Positions 15,187 through 48,313 of a stretch of 64,000 nt of DNA are shown here, in pieces (positions within the stretch are counted from its first letter, which is position 1; the number at the start of each line of letters is the position of its first letter). The DNA is from Salinarchaeum sp. Harcht-Bsk1. Lineage in GTDB: Archaea; Halobacteriota; Halobacteria; Halobacteriales; Salinarchaeaceae. A program made the translations under genes and the position numbers. The notes under the pieces were generated by a model. It was not told the origin of the DNA and did no database searches. It saw nothing but the letters and a program-made list of their open reading frames with translations. Location: the NCBI RefSeq assembly GCF_000403645.1, contig NC_021313.1, forward strand, positions 3,119,014 through 3,183,013, written 5' to 3'.

Positions 15187-16216
15187 GACGGTCACCCCCG
15201 AAGCCGCAACGGACGATCCGATCGCGCACTTCCTCGAAGAGCAGCGGTACCACGGCAAGAGTCAACGAACGCTCGACGCCTACGAACGTGTGCTTCGTCG
15301 CTTCGAGGCGTTCCTCGCTGATCCGGAACGGGTCCCGACGGCTCCGACCACTCCAGCCGAGGCGACGCGCAGAGAGTGCATGGCGTGGATCCACGAACTT
15401 CGCGGGGAGTACGCCCGGAGCACCATCGCGTCGTACGCAGCCTACGTCCACCGATTCTACGGGTACATGGTCCGCGTCGAGGAGTTCGATTCGAATCCGA
15501 TGGCCCTGGTCCGCGAGGAAATGGACGAGCGCATCGAGAAGAATCCGACGCGCCGGGACCTCAGCGTCGCGGACATGCGAGCCTTCGTCGGTTCGATCGA
15601 GCATCCGCTCCACCGTGCGCTGGTGGTCACGCTACTCAAGACCGGGATGCGGGTCGGGGAACTCTGTAATCTGGATCTCCGCGACGTGGCGATCCACCAC
15701 GAACTCCGGGCGGAGTCAGCAACGCCGACGCGGGCCGCGCTCGACGGCCGTCCGAATGCCATCTACGTGGCTGCTGGCACGGAACTCGACGGCGACCGGT
15801 CTGCTGCGAACAAACGACAGCGATCGACGATCGTCCCCGTCGACGACGAATTGCAGTCCACGCTCGTTCGTTGGCTTGCGATCAGACCCGATGCCAGGAG
15901 CGATCCCGCCCCGCTATTTTCGCCGACGGACGGCGACTGGGGAGACCGCATCGAACCACACGCCGTCCGTCGCATCGTTCGCCAGTACGCCGAGCAGTGG
16001 GGATGGTACGAATCCGGCGCAGGTGCCGGCGAGAACGTCACTCCTCACTACTTTCGGCACTTCTTCACCACCCACCTCCGGGACAGAATCGGGGATCGGG
16101 GCGTCGTCAAGTATCTTCGAGGGGACGTCGCCGAGGACATCATCGACACGTACACCCACAACTGGGGCGGTCGGGTGCGGGGAGTGTACGAAGCGAACGT
16201 CTACTCCCTGGTGTAG
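15179..16216 (+). CDS. tyrosine site-specific recombinase (phage-integrase/Xer family)
   Basis: 345 residues. There is an N-terminal SAM-like core-binding domain (about 12-105) and a C-terminal catalytic domain. The expected residues are Arg in TGMRVGEL, His and Arg in HYFRHFF, and the nucleophile Tyr325 in DTYTHNW. The position normally held by His or Trp nine residues before the Tyr is Asp316 (LRGD). Such enzymes cut and join DNA at short inverted-repeat sites for integration or chromosome resolution. It overlaps the upstream DNA-binding-like gene. No tRNA or att site is evident beside it, so it may be a chromosomal Xer-like enzyme rather than a provirus integrase. Confidence 0.85.
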   Translation: MAKTVTPEAATDDPIAHFLEEQRYHGKSQRTLDAYERVLRRFEAFLADPERVPTAPTTPAEATRRECMAWIHELRGEYARSTIASYAAYVHRFYGYMVRVEEFDSNPMALVREEMDERIEKNPTRRDLSVADMRAFVGSIEHPLHRALVVTLLKTGMRVGELCNLDLRDVAIHHELRAESATPTRAALDGRPNAIYVAAGTELDGDRSAANKRQRSTIVPVDDELQSTLVRWLAIRPDARSDPAPLFSPTDGDWGDRIEPHAVRRIVRQYAEQWGWYESGAGAGENVTPHYFRHFFTTHLRDRIGDRGVVKYLRGDVAEDIIDTYTHNWGGRVRGVYEANVYSLV

Positions 16217-34357: not shown

Positions 34358-37244
<2,887 letters not shown>

Positions 37245-37294
37245 ACTGAGCGGCGGTTCTCGACGCCAGCGGTTTTCGCCTCTCGCCCCCGTCG

Positions 37295-38455
37295 TCACTC
37301 GAAGGCGGTCATGCGTCGGATCGCAATCTGGAGCAGGGACGGCGTTACCAGCACCGAGACGAGCACGAGCAAGACGAACGCCGAGAACAGCTGCCTCGTT
37401 ACGTATCCCTCCGTGAGTGCGGTACCGACAATCGCCAGGCCGACTCCCGCTTTGGGTACCATACCGACGCCGATGGCCACCGACTCGCCGACGTCACCGC
37501 CCGCGATGGCGTTGCCAACGAGTCCGCCGACGAACTTCGACACTACCCCGAGGGTTACGACGGCGATGAGGAACGCGTCGAGGGTGCTCAGGACCCGAAG
37601 GTCGATTCGGGCGCCCACGCCAGCGAAGAATATCGGTATGAACACGCCGTACCCGATGCCGACGATGCCCTCCCGGACCTCCAGTCGCGAGAAGCGCTCA
37701 TTTTCACCGACGAGCAGCCCCACGACGAGCGCTCCGATGGTGACGTCGAGACCGGCCGCTTCTGCACCGTAACTGCCGAGAAACACCGCGCTGAGGAGTG
37801 CCAGGACGTCCACCCCGATCTGACGTGATCGTGCGAGGAGCGAGGAGAGCCACGCGACGATTCCGAATCGTGCCACCGCGACGGCGGCGAAGAACACGAT
37901 CACCTTTCCAAGCGTCGTCACGGCCGCCTGGAACCCCTCTCCGGAGACGGTAGTCAACAGCAGGGCGAACGCGAGCAGTCCCAGTACGTCGTCCACGACT
38001 GCCGCGCCGACGATGCGGTGTCCGATCCGCGACTCGAGTCGCTCGAGGTCCACCAGCGTTCGTGCGGTGACCGCGATTGAGGTAACCGAGAGCGCGAGCG
38101 CCAGGAACGCCGTCTCGACCGCACCGTAGCCGAATGCGAGCCCCAGTGCCACGCCGGTGGCTGCGGGCACCACCATCCCGCAGAGGCCGATGCTGATCGC
38201 TGCTGGACCGACCGCGAGAAGTTCCGTGAGGTCGAGGTGCTCGTAGCCGACGTCGAAGAAGAGCAGCATCGCACCGATGGTTGCGAACACGGCGAAGGTG
38301 CCGTCGTAGTCGATGAGACCGACGACGGACGGCCCGAGGACGAGGCCCGCCACGATCTCACCGACGAGTGCAGGTTCCCCCAGGCGCTCGAGAACCTCGC
38401 CGAAAACGAGCGCGACGGCCAAGGTCGCGCCGACGACGAGCAGGACGTCCGCCAT
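37295..38455 (-). CDS. cation:proton antiporter (CPA2/Kef-type), membrane domain only
   Basis: 386 residues from the ATG at 38455; an upstream in-frame ATG at 38515 would add a hydrophilic tail and is less likely. About 12 hydrophobic segments with the family pattern EPALVGEIVAGLVLGPSVVGL and AAVVDDVLGLLAFALLL, where the Asp pair is the usual ion-binding site. It exchanges Na+ or K+ for H+ across the membrane, important for a halophile. The C-terminal TrkA/RCK regulatory domain of many Kef proteins is absent. Convergent with katG, 50 bases apart. Confidence 0.88.
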   Translation of the reverse strand: MADVLLVVGATLAVALVFGEVLERLGEPALVGEIVAGLVLGPSVVGLIDYDGTFAVFATIGAMLLFFDVGYEHLDLTELLAVGPAAISIGLCGMVVPAATGVALGLAFGYGAVETAFLALALSVTSIAVTARTLVDLERLESRIGHRIVGAAVVDDVLGLLAFALLLTTVSGEGFQAAVTTLGKVIVFFAAVAVARFGIVAWLSSLLARSRQIGVDVLALLSAVFLGSYGAEAAGLDVTIGALVVGLLVGENERFSRLEVREGIVGIGYGVFIPIFFAGVGARIDLRVLSTLDAFLIAVVTLGVVSKFVGGLVGNAIAGGDVGESVAIGVGMVPKAGVGLAIVGTALTEGYVTRQLFSAFVLLVLVSVLVTPSLLQIAIRRMTAFE

Positions 38456-38682
38456 CGGGACCACGTTGTGCTCGCATTCACCTGTCTCTTGCTCCAACGG
38501 AGAGGACGACTGCACCGATCGCGTCGTTTGCCGGGGACACGAGAAGAGAAATCGATTTCGTCCGGCCGTCCAGCCGAGTTTTCGCTTCGGTACCGATCAC
38601 GCGGTACCAATCAGGTAATTGATGGTATGGAAATCGAAAGCGCGACTTTGGTGGTGGTGAGCGAAGTTCGAGGTGGGATACC

Positions 38683-39135
38683 ATGTCAACGACAGCCGAG
38701 GAGAACAAGCGCATCGTTCGTCGGATCCGTGACGAAGTCGAGGAGCAGGGTGATCTCGAGTCAGTTGACGAGATTTTCGCCGCGGACGTCGTGGTACACA
38801 CGCCGATGGGAGAGTTCCGTGGTCGTGAGGCGATCAAAGAGATGTACCAGAGCGACAACGAGGCATTTTCGGACTCCACGGAGACGATTCACGACGTCGT
38901 CGCGGATGATGACACCGTCGCCATCCGAATGACGGAGCGTGGCACCCACGACGGCGAGTTCTTGGGGATGGAACCAACCGGCAGAGAATACGAGATACAG
39001 ACCACGGCCTTCCTCCACCTGGACGACGGGAAGGTCACTGAATGGTGGATACAACCGGATACGCTCGGATTCTTTCGACAACTCGGCGTTGATCCCGAAG
39101 AGATCAGTGAGGCGGTACCGGCCGCCGACGACTGA
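38683..39135 (+). CDS. SnoaL-like (NTF2-fold) ester cyclase family protein
   Basis: 150 residues with an NTF2-like cone fold: helix EENKRIVRRIRDEVEEQ, then VVVHTPMGEFRGREAIKEMY, AIRMTERGTHDGEFLGMEPTG and the final strands KVTEWWIQPDTLGFFRQLGV. Relatives include polyketide cyclases, but most are of unknown activity. It lies 21 bases before the alpha/beta hydrolase gene and is probably co-transcribed with it, suggesting a shared small-molecule pathway, unidentified. Confidence 0.82.
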   Translation: MSTTAEENKRIVRRIRDEVEEQGDLESVDEIFAADVVVHTPMGEFRGREAIKEMYQSDNEAFSDSTETIHDVVADDDTVAIRMTERGTHDGEFLGMEPTGREYEIQTTAFLHLDDGKVTEWWIQPDTLGFFRQLGVDPEEISEAVPAADD

Positions 39136-39156
39136 CTTCCGTCACGCACCCCTCAG

Positions 39157-39972
39157 ATGCCAGATTGGGTTTCGACCTTCGGCGCGAAGTCGGATCGGAC
39201 GGTCGTCCTGCTCCATCCAGCCGGGTGGACGCGCCACGCGTGGACGCCCCACGCAGAGCGGCTGGCCGACAGGTACTGCGTCGTGACAATCGACTTGCCG
39301 GGACACGGCGTCCATCCCGCTCCCGAATTCTCGATGGAGCGGGCCGTCGCCGACGTCGATCGCGTCCTCGACTCGTTCGGTACTGCAGCCCTCGTCGGCC
39401 ATTCGCTGGGGGGATACGTTGCGATTCGTGCTGCGGCTGGCGATCCCGAACGAGTGGATGGACTGCTCCTGGCAGGCGCCGCCTACAACTGGTATTGGCG
39501 GTCGCCCGTGGGACTGGCGCTGAGTGTCGCCCAACGTCTTCAGTCCTCTCTCTTCGAGGGACTCTCGCACTTCCCCCGACTGGCTCGGCGGTTCAAGCAC
39601 GTCCCCGACGACGAGACGCAGTTGCCGCCCCCGCACGAGGACACGCACCCGTACTGGACGGGCTTCGTCAGCGCCATCCGGGATATCACCTTTCGACAGT
39701 CCTGGCAGGACGTCGAAGCCTACGGCGGGCCGACGCTGATTATCCACGGCGATACGGAACTGCTTGCAGGGCAGGCGGGTGCCCTCGCCGCGAGGGCCAA
39801 GGCGAATTTGCGATGGATCGAGGGCGACCACTACGCCCCGATGGACGATGCAGAGACGTTCACGGCGGAGGTGGCACGGTTCCTCGACGACGTCTACGCC
39901 GTGCAGATGGAGGCGAGTGCATCTGAGAACAGGAGCCACCGAGTTCGGGACCTGCTCCGAGTTGGGGGGTGA
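39157..39972 (+). CDS. alpha/beta-fold hydrolase
   Basis: 271 residues. The nucleophile elbow is GHSLGG (Ser near residue 88), the oxyanion-hole strand is VVLLHPAGW, and a candidate His is in EGDHYAPMDD. A lid segment lies at about 115-175. The third triad member is likely the Asp in IIHGDTEL. The family includes esterases, haloperoxidases and thioesterases; the substrate is unknown. It follows the SnoaL-like gene with a 21-base gap. Confidence 0.85.
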   Translation: MPDWVSTFGAKSDRTVVLLHPAGWTRHAWTPHAERLADRYCVVTIDLPGHGVHPAPEFSMERAVADVDRVLDSFGTAALVGHSLGGYVAIRAAAGDPERVDGLLLAGAAYNWYWRSPVGLALSVAQRLQSSLFEGLSHFPRLARRFKHVPDDETQLPPPHEDTHPYWTGFVSAIRDITFRQSWQDVEAYGGPTLIIHGDTELLAGQAGALAARAKANLRWIEGDHYAPMDDAETFTAEVARFLDDVYAVQMEASASENRSHRVRDLLRVGG

Positions 39973-40484
39973 TCCCCCTACGGCTGTAACGCGGGAATCC
40001 CGACAGGACCACCGACGACGTAGCCTTCCAGAACGCCCCGGAGTACGTGGCCCTTTCCTCGGAGACGACCCTGTCGAGATCCGAGCGGCGACAGCGGACG
40101 TCGACGGATCAGCCGTCACCACTGTCGAGCGCTCCTCGAAGGCCGGTCGCCGTACTCTGCGGTGGCCGTCGGCAACCTGCATCTCGACGTGGCGTCGGTC
40201 GACACACTATTCGAAGCCCCTTCGTCGGATAATGCCTCCGAGAGCGTTCGGTTGCATCGCACCACCAGACGCACGGTGAGAACTAAACGGATCATGGTCG
40301 GAGATAGGGGAAGAACCCCTCACGGTAACGTCTTCTTCAGTAGTCACCGATACGCGTGCCGTGGTTCGTTTGCCGACTCCAAACTCTGGAGTCACCGAAT
40401 ATACTGTCTCCACCGCACCCGATTCCAGGTGGAACACGGACGCGTAAGCAGCGTCGTCGCGATTGAGAGGGGTATCGGGAGGGA
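39973..40484. other. intergenic region with gene-like debris
   Basis: About 510 bases. Fragments in different frames look protein-like (DDVAFQNAPEYVAL, GDDPVEIRAATADVDGSAVT, AVAVGNLHLDVASVDTLFEA) and could be one decayed gene, unrecognised. A hairpin GACTCCA-AACTC-TGGAGTC is at 40375-40393. Confidence 0.35.
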
Positions 40485-40904
40485 TCACTCCTCCGCCAGC
40501 AGTCCAGTGAGTGCACTGGCCGCGTCTTCGAAGGCATTGACGTCCATGCTATCGGTGGTGAACAGAACGCCCGCATCACCTCGAAGGATTCGGACGACGA
40601 AACCGTCCTCGTGGAATCTCACGGTAAACTCGTAGGCACCGATGTCCGTGCCATCTTCGCGCTGGGCAAGCATCGTACGCACTGGGCCCTCGGCGAACCC
40701 GGTTCGTTCGAACTCGACAAGTTGCGACTTGGCCTCTCTCACAGTATGGGTCGATTCGTAGAGTCCCTGCCTCGTATAGAGGACGTCGAAATTCGATGGG
40801 GTGAAATACACGACGCTCCGGAGCGTATCCCCGAGACTCGTTCGGACGGCGCTGACGATGCTCTCGCTCATCTCTTCAGTGAGGGCTGTCTGGAGGGTCA
40901 TCAC
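40485..40904 (-). CDS. conserved haloarchaeal protein of unknown function
   Basis: 139 residues, acidic, without membrane segments. The middle runs SVVYFTPSNFDVLYTRQGLY and the end RFHEDGFVVRILRGDAGVLF. I recall similar proteins in many haloarchaea, but no function can be given. It stands alone, with gene-like debris downstream and the tRNA-fragment region upstream. Confidence 0.65.
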   Translation of the reverse strand: MMTLQTALTEEMSESIVSAVRTSLGDTLRSVVYFTPSNFDVLYTRQGLYESTHTVREAKSQLVEFERTGFAEGPVRTMLAQREDGTDIGAYEFTVRFHEDGFVVRILRGDAGVLFTTDSMDVNAFEDAASALTGLLAEE

Positions 40905-41147
40905 TCCACCAGATTGAATTGGTGTTCCGCGGTGACAACGATTGCGGTGGGGAAGCTACGTGGCGTCCGTCCAGTAACTGACTGGAAATTGAACCGTTCG
41001 GCGTGATAGACTGGACGACCGTCGACGAATTGTGAACGCCTGACGGAAGCAGATGCGCCTCGGCACGGGTTGCAATCACGAATCAGGGCACTGAAGCGAT
41101 AGATACCCCTTCTGTCGTCCCGTACCCTCGACCGTGAAGTGTGGTCG

Positions 41148-41169
41148 TGGGCGCTGCAGGCGTTGAACC
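41148..41169 (-). repeat. tRNA-Arg 3'-end fragment (att-like copy 1)
   Basis: TGGGCGCTGCAGG followed by CGTTGAACC matches the acceptor/T-arm end of the tRNA-Arg gene at 44841 in 20 of 22 positions, in the same orientation. It cannot form a tRNA. It looks like the far attachment site left by integration at the tRNA 3' end. Confidence 0.6.
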
Positions 41170-41271
41170 GGAGCCAGAGGTTCCTGCTCACTTCCACTGC
41201 GCGGGCTGCCTCTGGCCGGGTTCGAACCGTTGGACCAAGCGCTGCTCGTCACGACGTTCCTCGCAGGAGCA

Positions 41272-41294
41272 TGGGCGCTGCAGGCTCCGGTTCG
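41272..41294 (-). repeat. tRNA-Arg 3'-end fragment (att-like copy 2)
   Basis: TGGGCGCTGCAGG followed by CTCCGGTTCG. The first 13 bases are identical to the tRNA-Arg end. The next ten agree almost fully with copy 3 at 43267 rather than the tRNA, so copies 2 and 3 share a later history. Confidence 0.6.
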
Positions 41295-41574
41295 ACTGTC
41301 AAACGGAGATCTTTGCGACGCCGGGACTGGATTCGGGTGTGTCCGAGGTGGCAACATTAGATAGTTCTACACGCGTATTCGATCCCGTACTGAATCGAAT
41401 CCACGTATCTGGCACGGGGTTCTGCCACTCGTCTCGACAACAGGAGTGCTGCCACTGGATACGGGAGTCATCGAATCGAGAGTTGGATGGCTCCATAGAA
41501 TGGAGCGTCAGCAGTCAAAGCTCCGTCGACTGAGAGAACTCACGCGGATCCCACCGAGCAACTCCGCACCCTTC

Positions 41575-42906
41575 TCAGTCCGGCCCTGGATCATCCACCG
41601 CACGATCGTGGACCCGAATCGTCGAAATTCGAGTCCCCTCGACGCCCGTCACCTCGAGGACGTGCCGGTCAATCTCGACGCGATCGCCACGTTCCGGGGC
41701 ACGGTCGAGTTGTTCGAGTACAAGTCCGCCGATCGTTTCGACCTCTTCGCTCGTGAGGTCTCCCTCGATCACGTCGTTGATTGTTGACAGCGGGACGCCG
41801 CCATCGACGTCGTACCCGTCGTCGTCACGCTGGCGAATCGAGGGCTCACGCTCGTCCACGTCAAACTCATCCCGGAGGTCTCCGACGAGCGCCTCGACGA
41901 CGTCTTCGACCGTTGCAATCCCCTCTAGTGCCCCCCACTCGTCGATCACTGCGGCCATCTGCTGTTGGTCTTCCCTGAACTGTCGCAACAGATCGCTTAG
42001 CGCCATCGTCTCGGGGGCGATGATGATCTCGCGTGCGATGTCGCCGACCACTTCGGCGTTCTCGCCTCCCACCTCCGCGCGTAGCACGTCCTTGACGTCA
42101 ACGAATCCGACCACCTGGTCGCCGTCGTCGGCCTGGAGCACTGGATAGCGCGTATGCCCCTCCTCGAGGACGATCGAATGAAGGTCGGAGAGCGAGCTAT
42201 CAGCCGGAACGCTCACCACGTCCGGTCGTGGAACCATCACCTCCCGCACCACGATATCGTCGAGATCAAAGACCCGCTCGATCATGGTCACTTCCGCGAC
42301 GTCGATGTCACCCCCCTCACCCGATCGAGTGAGCACCCGCAAAAGCTCCCGTTCGCCGAGCGTCTCGTCCGTTTCGGAAGCGGGTGGGACGCCGAGTGAT
42401 CGCGTGAATGCGTTGGCGGCACCGTTGAACACGACGATCCCCGGATAGAGCAAGAAATAGAAGATCTTCATTGGCGGGGCGAGGAACAGGGAGAGTCGCT
42501 CTGTCTGGGCGATTGCGAGCGTCTTCGGCGCGAGTTCACCGAAGACGACGTGAAGGAACGTGATGATACTGAAACCGATTGCGAACGCGACGAGATGGAT
42601 GAGGCTCGCCGGGAGAACCGATTCCAGTACGGGCTCGATGAGTGCCGCCACTGCTGGTTCGCCGACCCATCCCAATCCGAGTGAAGCGATGGTGATACCG
42701 AGTTGCGTCGTGGCGAGATAGTCGTCGAGATTCTCCATCACCTCCTGGAACGTCCCCGCACCGGTGCGCCCCTCCTCTGCAAGTTGTTCGACCGATGTCC
42801 CTCGTATCCGCACGAAGGCGAACTCTGCAGCGACGAAGAAGCCGTTGAGTACCACGAGCACCAGCGCAACGACGACCTGCGCCAGTGAGAGTGCGAGGTT
42901 TACCAT
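41575..42906 (-). CDS. CNNM/CorC-type transporter (HlyC family)
   Basis: 443 residues from the ATG at 42906; an ATG 18 codons earlier adds a hydrophilic tip and is less likely. An N-terminal DUF21/CNNM membrane domain of about four helices (about 1-190) is followed by two CBS domains (about 205-330) and a C-terminal transporter-associated domain (about 340-430). Such proteins are implicated in Mg2+ or Co2+ efflux and sense nucleotides with the CBS pair. It lies between tRNA-Arg fragments 2 and 3, so it may have arrived with an integrated element or simply be bracketed by one. Confidence 0.87.
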   Translation of the reverse strand: MVNLALSLAQVVVALVLVVLNGFFVAAEFAFVRIRGTSVEQLAEEGRTGAGTFQEVMENLDDYLATTQLGITIASLGLGWVGEPAVAALIEPVLESVLPASLIHLVAFAIGFSIITFLHVVFGELAPKTLAIAQTERLSLFLAPPMKIFYFLLYPGIVVFNGAANAFTRSLGVPPASETDETLGERELLRVLTRSGEGGDIDVAEVTMIERVFDLDDIVVREVMVPRPDVVSVPADSSLSDLHSIVLEEGHTRYPVLQADDGDQVVGFVDVKDVLRAEVGGENAEVVGDIAREIIIAPETMALSDLLRQFREDQQQMAAVIDEWGALEGIATVEDVVEALVGDLRDEFDVDEREPSIRQRDDDGYDVDGGVPLSTINDVIEGDLTSEEVETIGGLVLEQLDRAPERGDRVEIDRHVLEVTGVEGTRISTIRVHDRAVDDPGPD

Positions 42907-43623
42907 TGGTGGGGCTGGAGGCTTCGGCTGTTCGATTCTCGTGTGACCATAGTCGTGCATCTCGTTCCACCTACAAAAATCGTTTAAAAGATGCTCGCAG
43001 CGATCCGACTGTCGTGATCATCGAACGAACGCAGCGGACCGGCCTGTTCGGCCGGAAATGGCCGCGCTAGCTGGCGATCATATCAAGACGCACCTCTGGG
43101 CGTTGCAGGGTTGTGAAGTACGCCCAGACGTGCTCGTTTCGATGCGCGCGTTTGGTCTCGTTCAAATCCTTCGCGCTACACTTCTCGCTCCTCAGATCCG
43201 TCCACCGAAGCGGCGAAGCCGCTTTGAGCAGTCGCTCACTGCGTTCGCGACAACTTCCCAAGGGAGTGGGCGCTGCAGGCTCTGGTTCGATGATCGAACG
43301 AATCGACCTTTGCGGCGTGAGGCTGCTTTATTCGGGCATTTGAGAAGTGGTGAATGTCTGGTTCTGAGCATGTATCCAAACCATGCTGAATAGAACGTGC
43401 GTATTGACCACCGCAGTTTAGACAGTTCAAAGAGATGTTTCGATAGCTGTGCGAGATACAGGGCGCGAATGTTGCACAAACTGAGAACCAATCTGTGATG
43501 TGTAGTGACCGATCAGTAGCAGCCAAGTAAACGAAGACATATCAGCTATCAAACTGTCAGTGTAGTTATATTTGTAGCTGTTGCAGTATGAGCGGAACAC
43601 TGCACGCAGTGTTCAGCTCAACT
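42907..43623. other. region with att-like copy 3 and eroded sequence
   Basis: About 715 bases between two divergent genes. It carries the tRNA-Arg fragment at 43267-43289. Several short frames suggest eroded coding DNA but none is credible. The part from 43380 is less GC-rich than the chromosome average and holds the promoter of the CHRD gene. Confidence 0.5.
43267..43289 (-). repeat. tRNA-Arg 3'-end fragment (att-like copy 3)
   Basis: TGGGCGCTGCAGG followed by CTCTGGTTCG, same orientation as the tRNA-Arg gene at 44841. It matches copy 2 at 41272 in 22 of 23 bases. Confidence 0.6.
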
Positions 43624-44451
43624 ATGGATCGACGTGAATTATTACAAGCGGGGGCGGGCGCGCTGGCGCTCACCCAGGTGCCGATAGCACTTGCACAGGA
43701 CGACGAGGATTTCGACGCTGCCGCATTGTTTAGTGCCGGTTCGATGACCGGCGATCAACAGAATCCGCCGCTCGAAAGTGACGGTGTCGGCGCTGCGGTC
43801 TTCAGTCTGTCACAGGATGCATCCGAACTTCACTACGTATTACTCAATACGGAACTTGAGGGAGTTACTCAAGCACATATTCACGCCGGAGAGCGCGAAG
43901 AGACCGGTGATGTCGTCGCGTTTCTGTTTGGCCAGCGAGATGAGGACGGTGTCTACACAGGGGAAATTGAGGGGGGAGTTACCTTCAACGGCGTTCACGC
44001 AACCGGTACGATCACGGAGGACGATCTTCTCGGGCCGTTCGAGGGTGAATCGTTCCAGATACTCGTAGACGCCATGCAAAATGAGGAAACGTATGTGAAC
44101 GTTCACACAGTCGAACATCCTGAGGGTGAAATCCGGGGACAATTGATGGAAGTTCAAGACATCGACATCAAGTTCACCGAGATGGACGACATCTGGCATG
44201 AGGGTGGACAGCTCCACATGCAACCCGACTCTCGATTGCTGATCCGCGAAAACGACGAGATTATTCACCACCACGATAACACCCGAGGACGCCAACGACA
44301 TCACGATCCAGAGACCGATGGGGATGATGAGCGTGGTCGAGAGCCAGATGATGACGGTCGTGGTCGAGGGCCAGATCACGGGCCCGACGACGCCCGGGGG
44401 CGTGGACGAGGCGATCATCATCGACGCCGAAGAGATGACGACGATGAGTAG
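43624..44451 (+). CDS. Tat-exported CHRD-domain protein with His/Asp/Arg-rich tail
   Basis: 275 residues from the ATG at 43624 (MDRRELLQAGAGALALTQV), a twin-arginine signal; an ATG 12 codons upstream would hide it. The CHRD (chordin-like) domain spans about 25-180 with THVxxG-type pieces QAHIHAGEREETGDVVAFLF and VNVHTVEHPEGEIRGQL. From about 215 the tail is a low-complexity run of His, Asp, Arg and Gly. CHRD proteins are secreted and poorly understood. Base composition is lower in GC than neighbours, and it sits between tRNA-Arg and its fragment at 43267, suggesting acquisition by integration. Confidence 0.75.
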   Translation: MDRRELLQAGAGALALTQVPIALAQDDEDFDAAALFSAGSMTGDQQNPPLESDGVGAAVFSLSQDASELHYVLLNTELEGVTQAHIHAGEREETGDVVAFLFGQRDEDGVYTGEIEGGVTFNGVHATGTITEDDLLGPFEGESFQILVDAMQNEETYVNVHTVEHPEGEIRGQLMEVQDIDIKFTEMDDIWHEGGQLHMQPDSRLLIRENDEIIHHHDNTRGRQRHHDPETDGDDERGREPDDDGRGRGPDHGPDDARGRGRGDHHRRRRDDDDE

Positions 44452-44840
44452 TTGATTACGGTAACCGTCTCCGTTGTTCAGGGGGAGCCATAATACATTT
44501 GTCAATTCCAGACCGGCCGTGTTCTGTTCGCACGTGAAGTGTACGTATAATCCACATATTTCTGTGCGAAAGAAATAAGGTCATCGTACTGCACTTAACC
44601 TCTGTATTCAGCACGGAATTCCTGACAAAACCTGGGATGATTCTGACCCGAGTTCTCCGATTCGGCGCAAGCACGATTGCTCATCAATCGGCGATTGATT
44701 TTCCGAATTGCCACCAGTTTGGCTGTACGCGAATCCCTGTGGAAATCACTCGCTGTTCGACCATCGAATGAAAGCAACGGCGCTGCGTTCGGTTGGCGGG
44801 CCACCTCGACGCTGCCGTGCGATTATATCTCGGGAAAATA
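44452..44840. other. intergenic region 3' of tRNA-Arg
   Basis: About 390 bases, AT-richer than average. It contains an inverted repeat ATCAATC-GGC-GATTGAT (44683-44699) and the T-rich stretch just beyond the tRNA 3' end that probably ends its transcription. No gene seen. Confidence 0.5.
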
Positions 44841-44915
44841 TGGGCGCTGCAGGATTTGAACCCGCGACAACTTGGTCCGAAGCCAAGCACTCTATCCAGA
44901 CTGAGCTAAGCGCCC
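44841..44915 (-). tRNA. tRNA-Arg (anticodon UCG)
   Basis: 75 bases including the discriminator A; no intron and no encoded CCA. The acceptor stem GGGCGCT pairs with AGCGCCC. The anticodon stem CTTGG/CCAAG encloses the loop CTTCGGA with anticodon UCG (complement at 44878-44880), and the T-arm GCGGGTTCAAATCCTGC is regular. A TATA-like box TTTAAG lies 26-31 bases upstream (44941-44946). Its 3' end is repeated three times downstream, marking it as an integration target. Confidence 0.92.
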
Positions 44916-44940
44916 TGCGCTGACGTATCGCTGGATTGCG

Positions 44941-44946
44941 TTTAAG
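44941..44946 (-). promoter_or_regulatory. TATA-like box of tRNA-Arg
   Basis: TTTAAG on the plus strand (CTTAAA on the coding strand), 26-31 bases from the first tRNA base, at the expected archaeal promoter distance. Confidence 0.5.
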
Positions 44947-45003
44947 TCCGACGATTCACCGTGGCGGGTAGTATTATCTGGCTCGAACGAGTCGCGAGTT
45001 AGC

Positions 45004-46437
45004 ATGAGCCACCGTCCCGGCATCGTTGGCCTCATCGCAACCGAGGACGGGGGTGTTGCCGAGATCGAAACCGCCCTCACCGAGCGAGGGCACGAGGTAC
45101 GGGCGGCGACCGAGGTGGAATCCGCGCGCAAACTCGCGAACGAACGTGCCGTCGATTGCCTCGTGGTTGCAGGGGGCGACGGGGTCGACGTCGTTGCGGT
45201 CCTGTCTGTGATCAACGAGGCGGATGCGCTGCTACCGACGGTCTGCTATCCTTACGCCGGCTCCGAAGCACTGGCGGCACGGACCATCGAACTCGACGTC
45301 GATACGTACGTCCCCCGATCGGCTGGCCTCGAGTCGCTCGTGGCGGCGGTGGACGACGCCTGCGCCGCCGGGGACGATCCGCTGCGGGACGCCGAGGGGA
45401 TGCTCCGTACCTTGACGGACGCGGTGCCGGTCTCACTGTCGATCTACTTCAAGGACGCGATGGGCCGGCACCTGCACGTCTCCGAACACTTCCCGAAACT
45501 GATCGGGCCTCCGTACATGGAGACGCCTGACGAGAAGATCATCCACCATCCGGCGGACGCGCTCGGGATGACCGATTTCGATCTCTATGGCCCGGAACTC
45601 GGCGTGGAGACTGCAGCGGACGAAGAGCGAATCATGAAGACCGGTGAACCGATCGTCGACAAACTCGAAGATGCCTCCGAGTCCGGTGACGAGGACTACT
45701 ACGTCTCGACCACGAAAGCGCCGTGGTACGATTCGACCGGCCGACTCCGCGGGATCGTCGGCGTCACGATCGACGTTTCCGAGCGCGAACGAAACCGACG
45801 TACGCTCGCCCGTCAGAACGAGCGACTCGAACGATTCGCGAGCACACTGAGTCACGACCTGCGCAATCCGCTGGCGATCGCGCAGGGACGACTCCGAGAA
45901 CTCGAGGGCGACTCGGAAGCGGTGGCGGACGTCGAGTGGGCCCTCGATCGGATGGACCAACTGATCAGTGAGATGCTCGAACTTGCTCGCCAGGGATCGG
46001 TCGTGGACGATCCCGAGCCAGTCGATCTCGCACTGCCGGCCCGGCACGCCTGGGATACCGTCGCTGCTGGTGGCACACTCACCGTCGGCGATCTTCGCAC
46101 GGTGGAGGGCGATCCAGAGCGGATCAGGACCCTCTTCGAGAATCTCTTTCGCAACGCCGTCGAGCACGGCGGCGACGACGTCGCGATCGCGGTTCAGGAT
46201 ACCGCTGACGGGTTCGCGGTGACGGACGACGGGCCGGGGATCCCAGGCGACGATCCCAGTGAGATATTCGAGCACGGGTTCACGACGAGAGCCGATGGGA
46301 CCGGATTCGGTCTCTCGATCGTCCGTGAGATTGCCGACGCTCACGGATGGACGATCGACGCCACGAACGGGGCCGCCGGGGGCGCTCGATTCGACGTTCG
46401 CGTCGTTCACCCACCGGATGGAGGCGGTGACGAGTGA
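45004..46437 (+). CDS. PAS-domain sensor histidine kinase with degenerate receiver
   Basis: 477 residues. A receiver-like domain (about 1-115) has lost the phospho-acceptor Asp: the strand reads VDCLVVAGGDG where the Asp is expected. A PAS domain (about 130-255, VSLSIYFKDAMGRHLHVSEH), a HisKA with the His in STLSHDLRNPLAIAQG and a HATPase (LFENLFRNAVEHGG; VTDDGPGIPG; GTGFGLSIV) follow. Cytoplasmic. The HisKA-HATPase half is close in sequence to the kinase at 2183. Input signal unknown. Confidence 0.87.
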   Translation: MSHRPGIVGLIATEDGGVAEIETALTERGHEVRAATEVESARKLANERAVDCLVVAGGDGVDVVAVLSVINEADALLPTVCYPYAGSEALAARTIELDVDTYVPRSAGLESLVAAVDDACAAGDDPLRDAEGMLRTLTDAVPVSLSIYFKDAMGRHLHVSEHFPKLIGPPYMETPDEKIIHHPADALGMTDFDLYGPELGVETAADEERIMKTGEPIVDKLEDASESGDEDYYVSTTKAPWYDSTGRLRGIVGVTIDVSERERNRRTLARQNERLERFASTLSHDLRNPLAIAQGRLRELEGDSEAVADVEWALDRMDQLISEMLELARQGSVVDDPEPVDLALPARHAWDTVAAGGTLTVGDLRTVEGDPERIRTLFENLFRNAVEHGGDDVAIAVQDTADGFAVTDDGPGIPGDDPSEIFEHGFTTRADGTGFGLSIVREIADAHGWTIDATNGAAGGARFDVRVVHPPDGGGDE

Positions 46438-46637
46438 GCTACTCACTGGAGATGTACCGGCCCCGAGTATCCCGATAACGACGCCTACCACGATGAGTCA
46501 CGACCCTGTGGGATAGCCGGTGCTATGCCTCCGACGATCGCCGGATCACCTCGGGGCGGTCTGATTAGCCCGGGACGGCGATCGACGACTGTCGACGATC
46601 CGCGCCATTTATCCGCTGGCCATCGCAGGAATCGGGC

Positions 46638-47483
46638 ATGGACGTGGGAACGGCCCTTCGGGGGTACTTCGATCTGACGCGGGCCGGGAACGCGATCACG
46701 TCGGGCGTCCTGACCTTCGTCGGAGCGTACGTGACTGGCGGTGCGTTCGAGGAGCCACTGGCGGCGACCGCTGCAGTCGTCGCCACGATCTTCGGCGTCG
46801 CTGCGGGGAACTCGATCAACGACTACTTCGACCGCGACATCGACGCGATCAATGCACCAGATCGGCCGCTACCGCGAGGAGCGGTGTCACCGAGGGGTGC
46901 ACTCCTCTTCAGCGGTGGGCTGTTCGCTGGAGCAGTGGTACTCGCATTGACGTTGCCTCCGCTGGCCATCGCGATCGCGCTCGTCAACCTCGTGGCGCTC
47001 GTCGCGTACACCAAACTGTTCAAAGGCCTTCCCGGGGCCGGGAACGTGGTGGTCGCGTACCTGGGTGGGAGTACGTTCCTGTTCGGGGCAGCGGCCGTCG
47101 CGACGCCCGACGCTGCCGCGCTCGTGCTGTTCGTGCTGGCCGCGCTCTCGACACTGGCGCGGGAGGTCGTCAAAGACGTCGAGGACGTCGAGGGGGACCG
47201 CTCGGAAGGACTCAACACGCTCCCGATCGCGATCGGCGAACGTCGCTCACTCCAGTTCGCCGTGCTGCTCGTACTCGTCGCCGTCCTCGTCAGCCCAGCA
47301 CCCTACCTGGTTGATGCCCTCGGTGTGAGCTACCTGATCGTCGTGGTTCCCGCACTCGCGATCCTCGTCTACGCAAGCTATCGTAGCTTCGAGGACCCTA
47401 CCAGGGGCCAGTCGTTCCTGAAGTACGGGATGTTGGTAGCCACCCTGGCGTTCGTCGTCGGACGCGCGGTACCGCTCTCCTGA
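46638..47483 (+). CDS. digeranylgeranylglyceryl phosphate synthase (UbiA family)
   Basis: 281 residues with eight or nine hydrophobic helices. The two Asp-rich prenyl-diphosphate motifs are NSINDYFDRDIDAIN (about 60-74) and KDVEDVEGDRSEGLNTLP (about 180-197). This membrane enzyme adds the second geranylgeranyl chain to geranylgeranylglyceryl phosphate in archaeal ether-lipid synthesis. The DYFDRDID spacing is that of the archaeal lipid branch rather than ubiquinone or heme branches. Monocistronic by spacing. Confidence 0.88.
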   Translation: MDVGTALRGYFDLTRAGNAITSGVLTFVGAYVTGGAFEEPLAATAAVVATIFGVAAGNSINDYFDRDIDAINAPDRPLPRGAVSPRGALLFSGGLFAGAVVLALTLPPLAIAIALVNLVALVAYTKLFKGLPGAGNVVVAYLGGSTFLFGAAAVATPDAAALVLFVLAALSTLAREVVKDVEDVEGDRSEGLNTLPIAIGERRSLQFAVLLVLVAVLVSPAPYLVDALGVSYLIVVVPALAILVYASYRSFEDPTRGQSFLKYGMLVATLAFVVGRAVPLS

Positions 47484-47680
47484 GCCGGGACGAGCGACTG
47501 ATTGCGGCGGCTGAACGAGGGAACCGCAGCCGTTTTCGCCGGGTCTGCTCCTCGTTCGACACCACTCGATTCACCGGAGGAACGCCGGAAAGCGGGGGGT
47601 ACCAATCACAAGTACTATATGGGTATCCACTCATTTTCCGGTAGCACTGGACTCCGTCGAGCAGTGAGTCTCGATATAGC

Positions 47681-48313
47681 ATGTACGATCTGGACGACGT
47701 CTTGCCTGACGCCGAGATCGGCCCCGGAACGAACCTTTTGATCTCCGGGCCACCAATGACTGGCAAGCGACGCGTTGCGTTTCAGATACTGGCTCGGGGC
47801 ACCGATCATGGCGAGGGCGTGATCGTCGTCTCGACGAAGGACGGCGCCGAGAAGGTGTTCGACGAGTACGGCCGTTTCGCCAGCGGTCTCGAGGACTCCC
47901 CGGTCGGCGTCGTCGACTGCGTCACGAAGCAACAGGGCGCAGGCGACGTCGAGGATTCTGCACGGGTCAAATACGCTTCCTCTCCCGTCGACATGACCGG
48001 TATCGGGATCAAACTCTCCGAGTTCCTCGAGGAGTTCTACGACGGGCGTGGCGTCCAGCGAAATCGCATCTTGCTTCATTCGATCTCCACGCTGTTGATG
48101 TACTCGAACCTCCAGACGGTGTTTCGATTCCTCCACGTGTTCACCGGCCGAATCCAGAGCGCCGACGCGCTCGGTCTTTACGTCATCGACTCGACGGCCC
48201 ACGACGACCAGACGATGAACACTCTCAAACAGCTCTTCGACGGCGTGATCGAGGTCGACGAGGACGACGCCGGCGAGCAGTCGATCTCGACGGCCGGCAT
48301 TCAGTCGGCGTAA
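47681..48313 (+). CDS. KaiC/RadA-like ATPase of unknown role
   Basis: 210 residues. Walker A is ISGPPMTGKRR (about 20-30), and the strand ALGLYVIDSTAHDDQT near 160 fits a Walker B position. The RecA-like core resembles KaiC/RAD55-type proteins that haloarchaea have in many copies, often linked to signalling. There is only one ATPase domain and no extra partner domain. A TATA-like run (ACTATATGGG near 47625) precedes it. Function unknown. Confidence 0.75.
   Translation: MYDLDDVLPDAEIGPGTNLLISGPPMTGKRRVAFQILARGTDHGEGVIVVSTKDGAEKVFDEYGRFASGLEDSPVGVVDCVTKQQGAGDVEDSARVKYASSPVDMTGIGIKLSEFLEEFYDGRGVQRNRILLHSISTLLMYSNLQTVFRFLHVFTGRIQSADALGLYVIDSTAHDDQTMNTLKQLFDGVIEVDEDDAGEQSISTAGIQSA

Follow-up and report, generated by a model that had tools for sequence, protein, structure and literature searches.

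The 3' ends of tRNA genes are the classic entry points of viruses and plasmids into archaeal chromosomes. Among the elements that use them, those of the SNJ2 type (the pleolipoviruses SNJ2, Halfgib1 and HHPV4 and the plasmid pHK2) resemble the locus described here, a tRNA-Arg(TCG) gene and the DNA on its 3' side, which lie in a 64,000-nt stretch of the chromosome of Salinarchaeum sp. Harcht-Bsk1 (NC_021313.1, positions 3,119,014 to 3,183,013; hereafter the window). A provirus related to that of Haloferax gibbonsii occupies the corresponding tRNA of Hfx. volcanii (PMC7911831). SNJ2-type elements and our locus have in common a tRNA 3' end as the site, a 13-nt core that in Halfgib1 is identical to the 13-mer of the window, and the integrase family found in relatives that share arm sequences with the window. 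Unlike these elements, the segments of the window are only 1.6-1.8 kb long and hold neither an integrase nor recognised virus genes, and the attP regions of SNJ2-type elements that we viewed contain none of the hairpin units that accompany the segments here. As regards a comparison with miniature inverted-repeat transposable elements, the units do have inverted arms, which are internal and follow the host tRNA.

The recombinase CcrB is of the serine type. It is to this enzyme that the integrase of the tandem ssrA islands of Dehalococcoides is likened (PMC3146451), whereas the relatives of the window segments have a tyrosine integrase of the SNJ2 type. These islands and cis-mobilizable elements resemble our locus in having many direct 3'-end repeats downstream of one RNA gene, in standing in tandem and in lacking, in some cases, an integration module (PMC3146451); they differ in that the inserts of the window are much smaller and have hairpin units between them. 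Copies of tRNA tails also occur at prophage ends in Haloquadratum walsbyi, along with SMR-A, an element of ~110 bp without a transposase (PMC3119063), but SMR-A makes no target duplication and enters PATEs or IS605-type elements, whereas units of the kind found in the window stand at tRNA ends with a 21-24-nt copy. Integration at tRNA ends, accretion and integrase-less islands are already known (PMC8371274, PMC3146451). No description of the hairpin units or of a stack of small cassettes was found in the open-licence literature searched, which is weak evidence of novelty; to our knowledge, neither has been described before, and the units may represent a new kind.

Here we report that the 3' end of tRNA-Arg(TCG) has very probably been the site of several insertions, comprising SNJ2-related cassettes and, separately, hairpin units that are found throughout the haloarchaea. 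We consider the latter to matter more than the cassettes. Related genomes and fetched sequences are cited by our working numbers (G and L), G000 being the genome that holds the window and G001 a congener.

Copies of the tRNA-Arg(TCG) 3' end and the segments between them

The last 13 nt of the tRNA gene, TGGGCGCTGCAGG, recur exactly at 43267, 41272 and 41148 in the orientation that they have in the gene itself (44841), on the + strand and on the 3' side of the tRNA. An earlier note on this DNA had read these copies as a ladder of four left by repeated integration, and its comparisons of longer stretches (22 of 23 bases alike between the second and third copies, 20 of 22 between the copy at 41148 and the tRNA) are correct on the sequence; a fifth copy with one mismatch, at 43097-43109, had escaped it. 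The four exact copies are the only ones in the entire 3,255,260-bp genome and all lie inside 3.7 kb, while the reversed control pattern occurs 1 + 1 times. With up to two mismatches allowed, the window contains 10 matches to the 13-mer against 1.48 expected, a number reached by none of 100 shuffles.

Moving away from the tRNA, the copies delimit a CHRD segment, a 170-bp interval, a CNNM segment and a 124-bp interval, beyond which the chromosome continues with a DUF7522 gene (Table 1). An Rfam scan of window positions 38000-48000 gave the tRNA as its sole match. The earlier note had placed the CHRD and CNNM genes in the intervals, as we find them; it had missed that 41148-41271 and 43097-43266 are more than mere copies, a covariance model (described below) identifying both as hairpin units. 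Repeated insertion at the tRNA 3' end is supported as the best reading, with inserts of two kinds, gene cassettes and hairpin units, a distinction that the earlier reader had not seen, any more than the identity of the 13-mer with a pleolipovirus attP core. Conservation of the order and the copies in distant haloarchaea, which the earlier note had named as a refutation, is not what we find: in the congener G001, a unit stands directly at the tRNA and the CHRD segment is missing between the two.

The CHRD segment carries an exact copy of the 13-mer at each end, and its end reads, in the sense of the tRNA, AAAGGTCGATTCGTTCGATCATCGAACCAGAG followed by the core. On the tRNA side, its right arm has counterparts at the equivalent position of G002 and at two positions of G181, and the pattern of left arm plus core was found at 18 sites in 14 of 293 Halobacteriales genomes, compared with none for the reversed control. 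Set against SNJ2-type elements, the segment shares the att core (13 of 13 nt with the Halfgib1 attP, which is the tRNA 3' end) and has arms in common with integrase-bearing relatives, while lacking an integrase of its own. Because its core equals the Halfgib1 attP, its left arm flanks integrase genes elsewhere, and the best phage match of the integrase in G008 is SNJ2, the CHRD segment is best read, from sequence comparison, as an integrase-less, accreted integrative element that would use the att site of the SNJ2 group. It also shows the features of an accreted or cis-mobilizable element (att copies at both ends, no integrase, tandem arrangement), which the CNNM segment shows in part. Elsewhere in the window, 25 kb away, an open frame at 15611-16162 contains a Phage_integrase domain (PF00589, E 1e-12) whose product may serve in trans.

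The CNNM segment is probably a second cassette similar to the first. The left arms of the two segments are 78% alike over 45 nt. The CNNM gene is patchily distributed in relatives, its closest homologues (80-81%) being found in three other families, none of them beside tRNA-Arg.

Table 1. Features of the tRNA-Arg(TCG) locus (window coordinates)
Feature	Position	Strand	Evidence or remark
tRNA-Arg(TCG)	44841..44915	-	ARAGORN; Rfam RF00005, 65 bits
Insertion site, last 13 nt of tRNA-Arg(TCG), TGGGCGCTGCAGG	44841-44853	+	equals annotated 13-nt attP of Halfgib1
CHRD cassette, 1574 bp including far-end copy 43267-43279	43267..44840	.	exact 13-nt copy at each end
Right (tRNA-proximal) arm of CHRD cassette	44684..44791	-	blastn E 2.7e-20 with the corresponding place in G002 and at best E 3.8e-18 with arms in G181
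CHRD-domain protein gene, frame also open from 43588	43624..44451	+	open reading frame; Pfam PF07452, E 1.2e-22
Left arm of CHRD cassette (..GATTCGTTCGATCATCGAACCAGAG, then core)	43280..43311	-	pattern in Halobacteriales genomes; adjoins integrase genes elsewhere
Type I hairpin unit A, decayed, 170 bp, ending in one-mismatch copy 43097-43109	43097..43266	-	model R1 match 43106-43173, E 1.6e-4
CNNM segment (probable cassette), 1825 bp, ending in copy 41272-41284	41272..43096	.	13-nt copies; left arm like that of CHRD cassette
CNNM/CorC-type transporter gene	41575..42960	-	Pfam PF01595, E 4.1e-49
Left arm of CNNM segment	41285..41316	-	within 45-nt repeat D4 with 43256-43300
Type I hairpin unit B, decayed, 124 bp, ending in copy 41148-41160	41148..41271	-	model R1 match 41163-41225, E 3.4e-7

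Counterpart cassettes and integrases in other genomes

The earlier note had proposed comparing the flanks of tRNA-Arg in relatives, and G002, G181 and six further genomes were indeed found to hold different segments there, bounded by the same cores. We fetched 13 regions around left-arm sites, of which six have tRNA-Arg(TCG) upstream; the sites stand in tandem in G279, G239 and G192, and likewise in G181. By Pfam, the cargo between the cores consists of a PIN_2 protein with a small partner in G002 and of a Fic/DOC protein with a small membrane protein in G181, where DUF433 and DUF5615 proteins are moreover encoded behind a unit; the cargo of G279 and G244 was judged by visible likeness of the translations. 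The counterpart cassettes carry other cargo, often toxin-antitoxin genes. Read in this way, the tRNA-Arg(TCG) end is a layered record of insertions, in which single genes, often toxin-antitoxin modules, were left without the enzyme that brought them. We delimited 14 segments of 0.9-4.9 kb that are flanked by core copies; no integrase match lies in 13 of them, and the remaining one has a broken integrase.

An integrase homologue lies 107-124 nt from the core in five of the 13 regions and is full-length in four. The full-length gene starts 110-124 nt inside the core in G210, G243 and G257, which have a left arm of the CHRD type, and in G272, where the core adjoining the integrase has a different left arm; in G192, a broken integrase starts 107 nt inside a core with a CHRD-type left arm. 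In a set of 33 other tRNA-Arg flanks, which includes five genomes picked because copies had already been seen there, a single integrase was found within 10 kb of the tRNA, that of G008, and the phage record closest to it is SNJ2 (42.8% amino acid identity), with other pleolipoviruses next.

The first 130 nt behind tRNA-Arg(TCG) can also hold another kind of right arm, which is conserved across several families (L172, L174, L175, L178, L179, L183, L186, L190 and L167). Most of these sequences contain a GGGGTCGCCG..GTC.TGCGATT motif that resembles the side beyond the virus attP, a fit that was chosen after viewing; the far ends of the corresponding elements were not found within 10 kb. In G000 itself, at ~1.819-1.820 Mb (L053, L045), a pair resembling a PIN protein and its antitoxin, judged by likeness to the G002 pair, ends in a CHRD-type left arm and a worn core. 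This cassette sits away from the usual site, with no tRNA within the fetched 3 kb.

Hairpin units behind tRNA genes of Halobacteriales

The two intervals of the window are decayed members of a family that is intact elsewhere. Behind tRNA-Arg(TCG), one intact unit stands in G001 (125 bp), one in G004, two in G014 and three in G165; G181 has a unit behind the second cassette. Read from the tRNA outward, a unit of type I consists of a hairpin, an inverted copy of the T-arm of the host tRNA, a GC-rich hairpin in which the pair AGTCGCAGC..GACCGTCT recurs, and a repeat of the T-arm and acceptor strand of the host. Units of type II are shorter and end in only the last 13-14 nt, behind a small hairpin and CTCAGTCCC. 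In the window, the inverted T-arm falls at ~43160-43169 in unit A, a homologue of which stands immediately behind tRNA-Arg in G001, and at ~41220-41228 in unit B.

The flanks examined cover 34 loci plus the window in G000 (of 42 Rfam matches), 36 of 41 in G001 and 10 of 41 in G181. In G000, tRNAs for Ser, Gly, Arg, Leu, His, Met, Thr, Val, Glu and Lys are followed by units, and every unit bears the tail of the tRNA that it follows. A tRNA's own last 14 nt recur within 400 nt downstream for 14 of 35 tRNAs in G000 and 12 of 36 in G001, compared with 0 of 1186 and 0 of 1254, respectively, when tails were swapped. The 81 tRNAs yielded 34 units in which 18 or more of the 22 tail bases agree; the uninterrupted identity of the tail measures 21-24 nt in 19 of them, and 21 or 22 nt in 17. 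The inverted arm follows the host as well, with at least 13 of 15 bases in 13 of 34 units against 11 of 695 swapped pairings. Of the 34 units, 23 went into covariance model R1; units with an inverted arm below 11 of 15 or of excessive length were dropped, and tRNA-Val(tac) was removed by hand. In the alignment of these 23 cores, double changes occur at 14 of the 19 predicted pairs. Folding z-scores range from -3.1 to -4.2 for three intact units, compared with +0.5 for a 121-nt piece of decayed unit A. A match to an inverted T-arm pattern was obtained in nine viral contigs (L157-L165), and a blastn search of plasmids with one unit gave no match.

Comparison of G000 with G001 revealed exact empty sites at tRNA-Glu(CTC) and tRNA-Leu(TAA), at which the G000 sequence past the unit is the G001 sequence directly behind the tRNA, and at tRNA-Lys(TTT) for a composite of types I and II. 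These empty sites show that whole hairpin units, with exact boundaries, are gained or lost. The mean identity of cores is 0.57 (n=10) when they stand at the same tRNA in two genomes and 0.62 (n=240) when they stand at different tRNAs in one genome. Up to three units stand in tandem at one tRNA (L035). Integrase elements lie between the tRNA and the units at tRNA-Arg(TCT) of G001 (~5.8 kb) and at tRNA-Phe (~8.5 kb) and tRNA-Glu(TTC) (~9.4 kb) of G000, an order that matches that of the window, with the CHRD cassette in place of the larger element. At the last of these tRNAs, a 5'-truncated copy of tRNA-Glu(TTC) lies ~9.4 kb from the gene (L356, 690-1100) and is followed by two units with a tRNA-Glu tail. 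Two related integrase genes are directly followed by a unit in L352 (4300-4440) and L358 (1150-1290), with no tRNA within the fetched 9-10.5 kb.

The core model matches 45 of 59 Halobacteriales relatives, or 43 of 57 once G000 and G001, which both contributed rows to it, are set aside; these two genomes hold 32 and 30 matches, respectively. Across a sample of the phylum it matches 31 of 196 genomes, all 31 of them Halobacteriales. Units are nearly always in the sense of the tRNA and close to it, and among 70 fetched flanks a tRNA-sense match was obtained in 17 of 34 in G000 and 17 of 36 in G001. In named genomes, a pattern scan located the core motif in several genera, among them Halorubrum, Haloparvum, Halorussus, Haloferax and Haloarcula. 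A further scan with the motif gave at least 120 stretches, 80 of which were examined. Among the matches listed, 25 of 75 haloarchaeal motifs lie behind a tRNA, and in 24 of these 25 a tail copy scores 16 of 20 bases or better (20 of 20 in 19), the scores being the best fit over a 60-nt stretch without a shuffled control; the eight bacterial matches among those listed have no tRNA.

Origin of the cassettes and of the hairpin units

In the scheme that we propose, each insert would leave a further tRNA end on the side away from the gene, giving a stack that runs, from the tRNA, through the CHRD cassette, a hairpin unit, the probable CNNM cassette and a second unit. The cassettes would be integrase-less relatives of SNJ2-type (pleolipovirus or plasmid) elements, with which they have att core and arms in common, recombined at the tRNA end by an SNJ2-type integrase whose gene was then lost or which such an element supplied in trans. 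Site-specific recombination of the SNJ2 type is well supported for the cassettes by their ends and their relatives; the act itself we infer. The hairpin units form a separate family, present behind many tRNAs and showing the host's own tail. Newer inserts lie nearer the tRNA, as the comparison of the CHRD cassette with G001 shows and as the order at tRNA-Arg(TCT), tRNA-Phe and tRNA-Glu lets one see; for the remaining inserts, this order is presumed.

Several observations weigh against this scheme. The right arm of the CNNM segment is weak or lost, and its reading as a cassette is less sure than that of CHRD because there is no clear right arm. CHRD homologues of other genomes are not located at tRNA-Arg(TCG), and no donor element with CHRD was found. 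The search for an integrase fragment that the earlier note had suggested (tblastn with two integrases, window 37001-46000) found none in the intervals, and the mobility of the CHRD segment is therefore deduced from its ends. Furthermore, 28 of the 33 other tRNA-Arg flanks have no further core copy within ~10 kb, and among the matches listed 50 of 75 haloarchaeal core motifs have no tRNA in the up to 700 nt looked at upstream; of 39 such tRNA-less motifs viewed, 36 are part of other repeats and are not followed by a T-arm.

That the copies arose by chance or by simple tandem duplication of the tRNA end is scarcely credible. The sequence is GC-rich and 13 nt is short, yet the copy counts, the shuffles and the swapped-tail controls rule out chance, and duplication without gene gain is contradicted by arms that are shared between segments with differing cargo. 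An old, fixed arrangement is likewise rejected, by the absence of the CHRD segment from G001 and by the lack of CHRD and CNNM homologues in G001 and G002 at the thresholds used. The tandem array of small cassettes with toxin-antitoxin cargo brings integrons to mind: a recombinase would capture folded single-stranded hairpins with the tRNA end as attI, and the inverted arm would let a single strand of a unit rebuild part of the tRNA end. We regard such an origin as most improbable, since the one integrase seen within 10 kb of the 33 tRNA-Arg loci is of the SNJ2 type rather than an IntI beside an array, and since the cassette cores match a virus attP.

The units themselves could instead be immobile, conserved trailers of tRNA transcripts, serving in 3' processing, in termination or as small RNAs, with the tail copies being part of their function. 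The strong covariation of paired bases, the stable folding of intact units compared with the decayed piece, and their sense and nearness to the tRNA all speak for this. It is nonetheless unlikely, as a unit present in one species may be missing, with an exact empty site, from another of the same genus, same-tRNA cores are no more alike than different-tRNA cores of one genome, up to three units stand in tandem, and 17 of 34 and 19 of 36 flanks are without a tRNA-sense match to the model. Nor do the units look like scars of an SNJ2-type attP: the attP regions of SNJ2, HHPV4, Halfgib1, Humcor2, Harhisp1 and pHK2 show no such hairpin by eye. A tyrosine recombinase explains the position of the units and not the host-specific tails on cores common to different tRNAs; if, as we suspect, cores travel between tRNAs and their ends are adapted to each host, a site-specific attP borne by the element could not account for this. 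Insertion with a fixed 21-22-nt target copy would account for the tails, and casposons use tRNA genes. The length of the uninterrupted tail, and its being that of the host rather than of an element-borne attP, would fit an enzyme like Cas1 or a casposase, but we give this source slightly less credence even than the integron-like one: Cas1 (PF01867) is absent from G000 and G001, and six of eight unit-bearing genomes searched lack it, two being positive.

Our own, tentative reading, which we put forward with some doubt, is that the units of type I make up a class of miniature mobile elements of Halobacteriales that is as yet undescribed; these elements, ~100-180 bp long, may insert at almost any tRNA 3' end with a fixed 21-22-nt copy of the host, their internal inverted arm being re-made to the T-arm of each host, perhaps by templated correction. 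Such correction of an imperfect palindrome is our suggestion for how the arm would be kept in register. Should the units be mobile, they would rank with the smallest known mobile DNA and would target the most essential genes of the cell without harm, and their host-following tails and arms raise a clear question of mechanism.

A dispersed repeat of Halorubrum and other haloarchaea (L204 184-228, L216 231-275, L229 3568-3612 and others) has a hairpin core like that of the units, with neither a T-arm nor a tRNA. The presence of one predicted fold in two repeat families suggests that they may have one binding partner.

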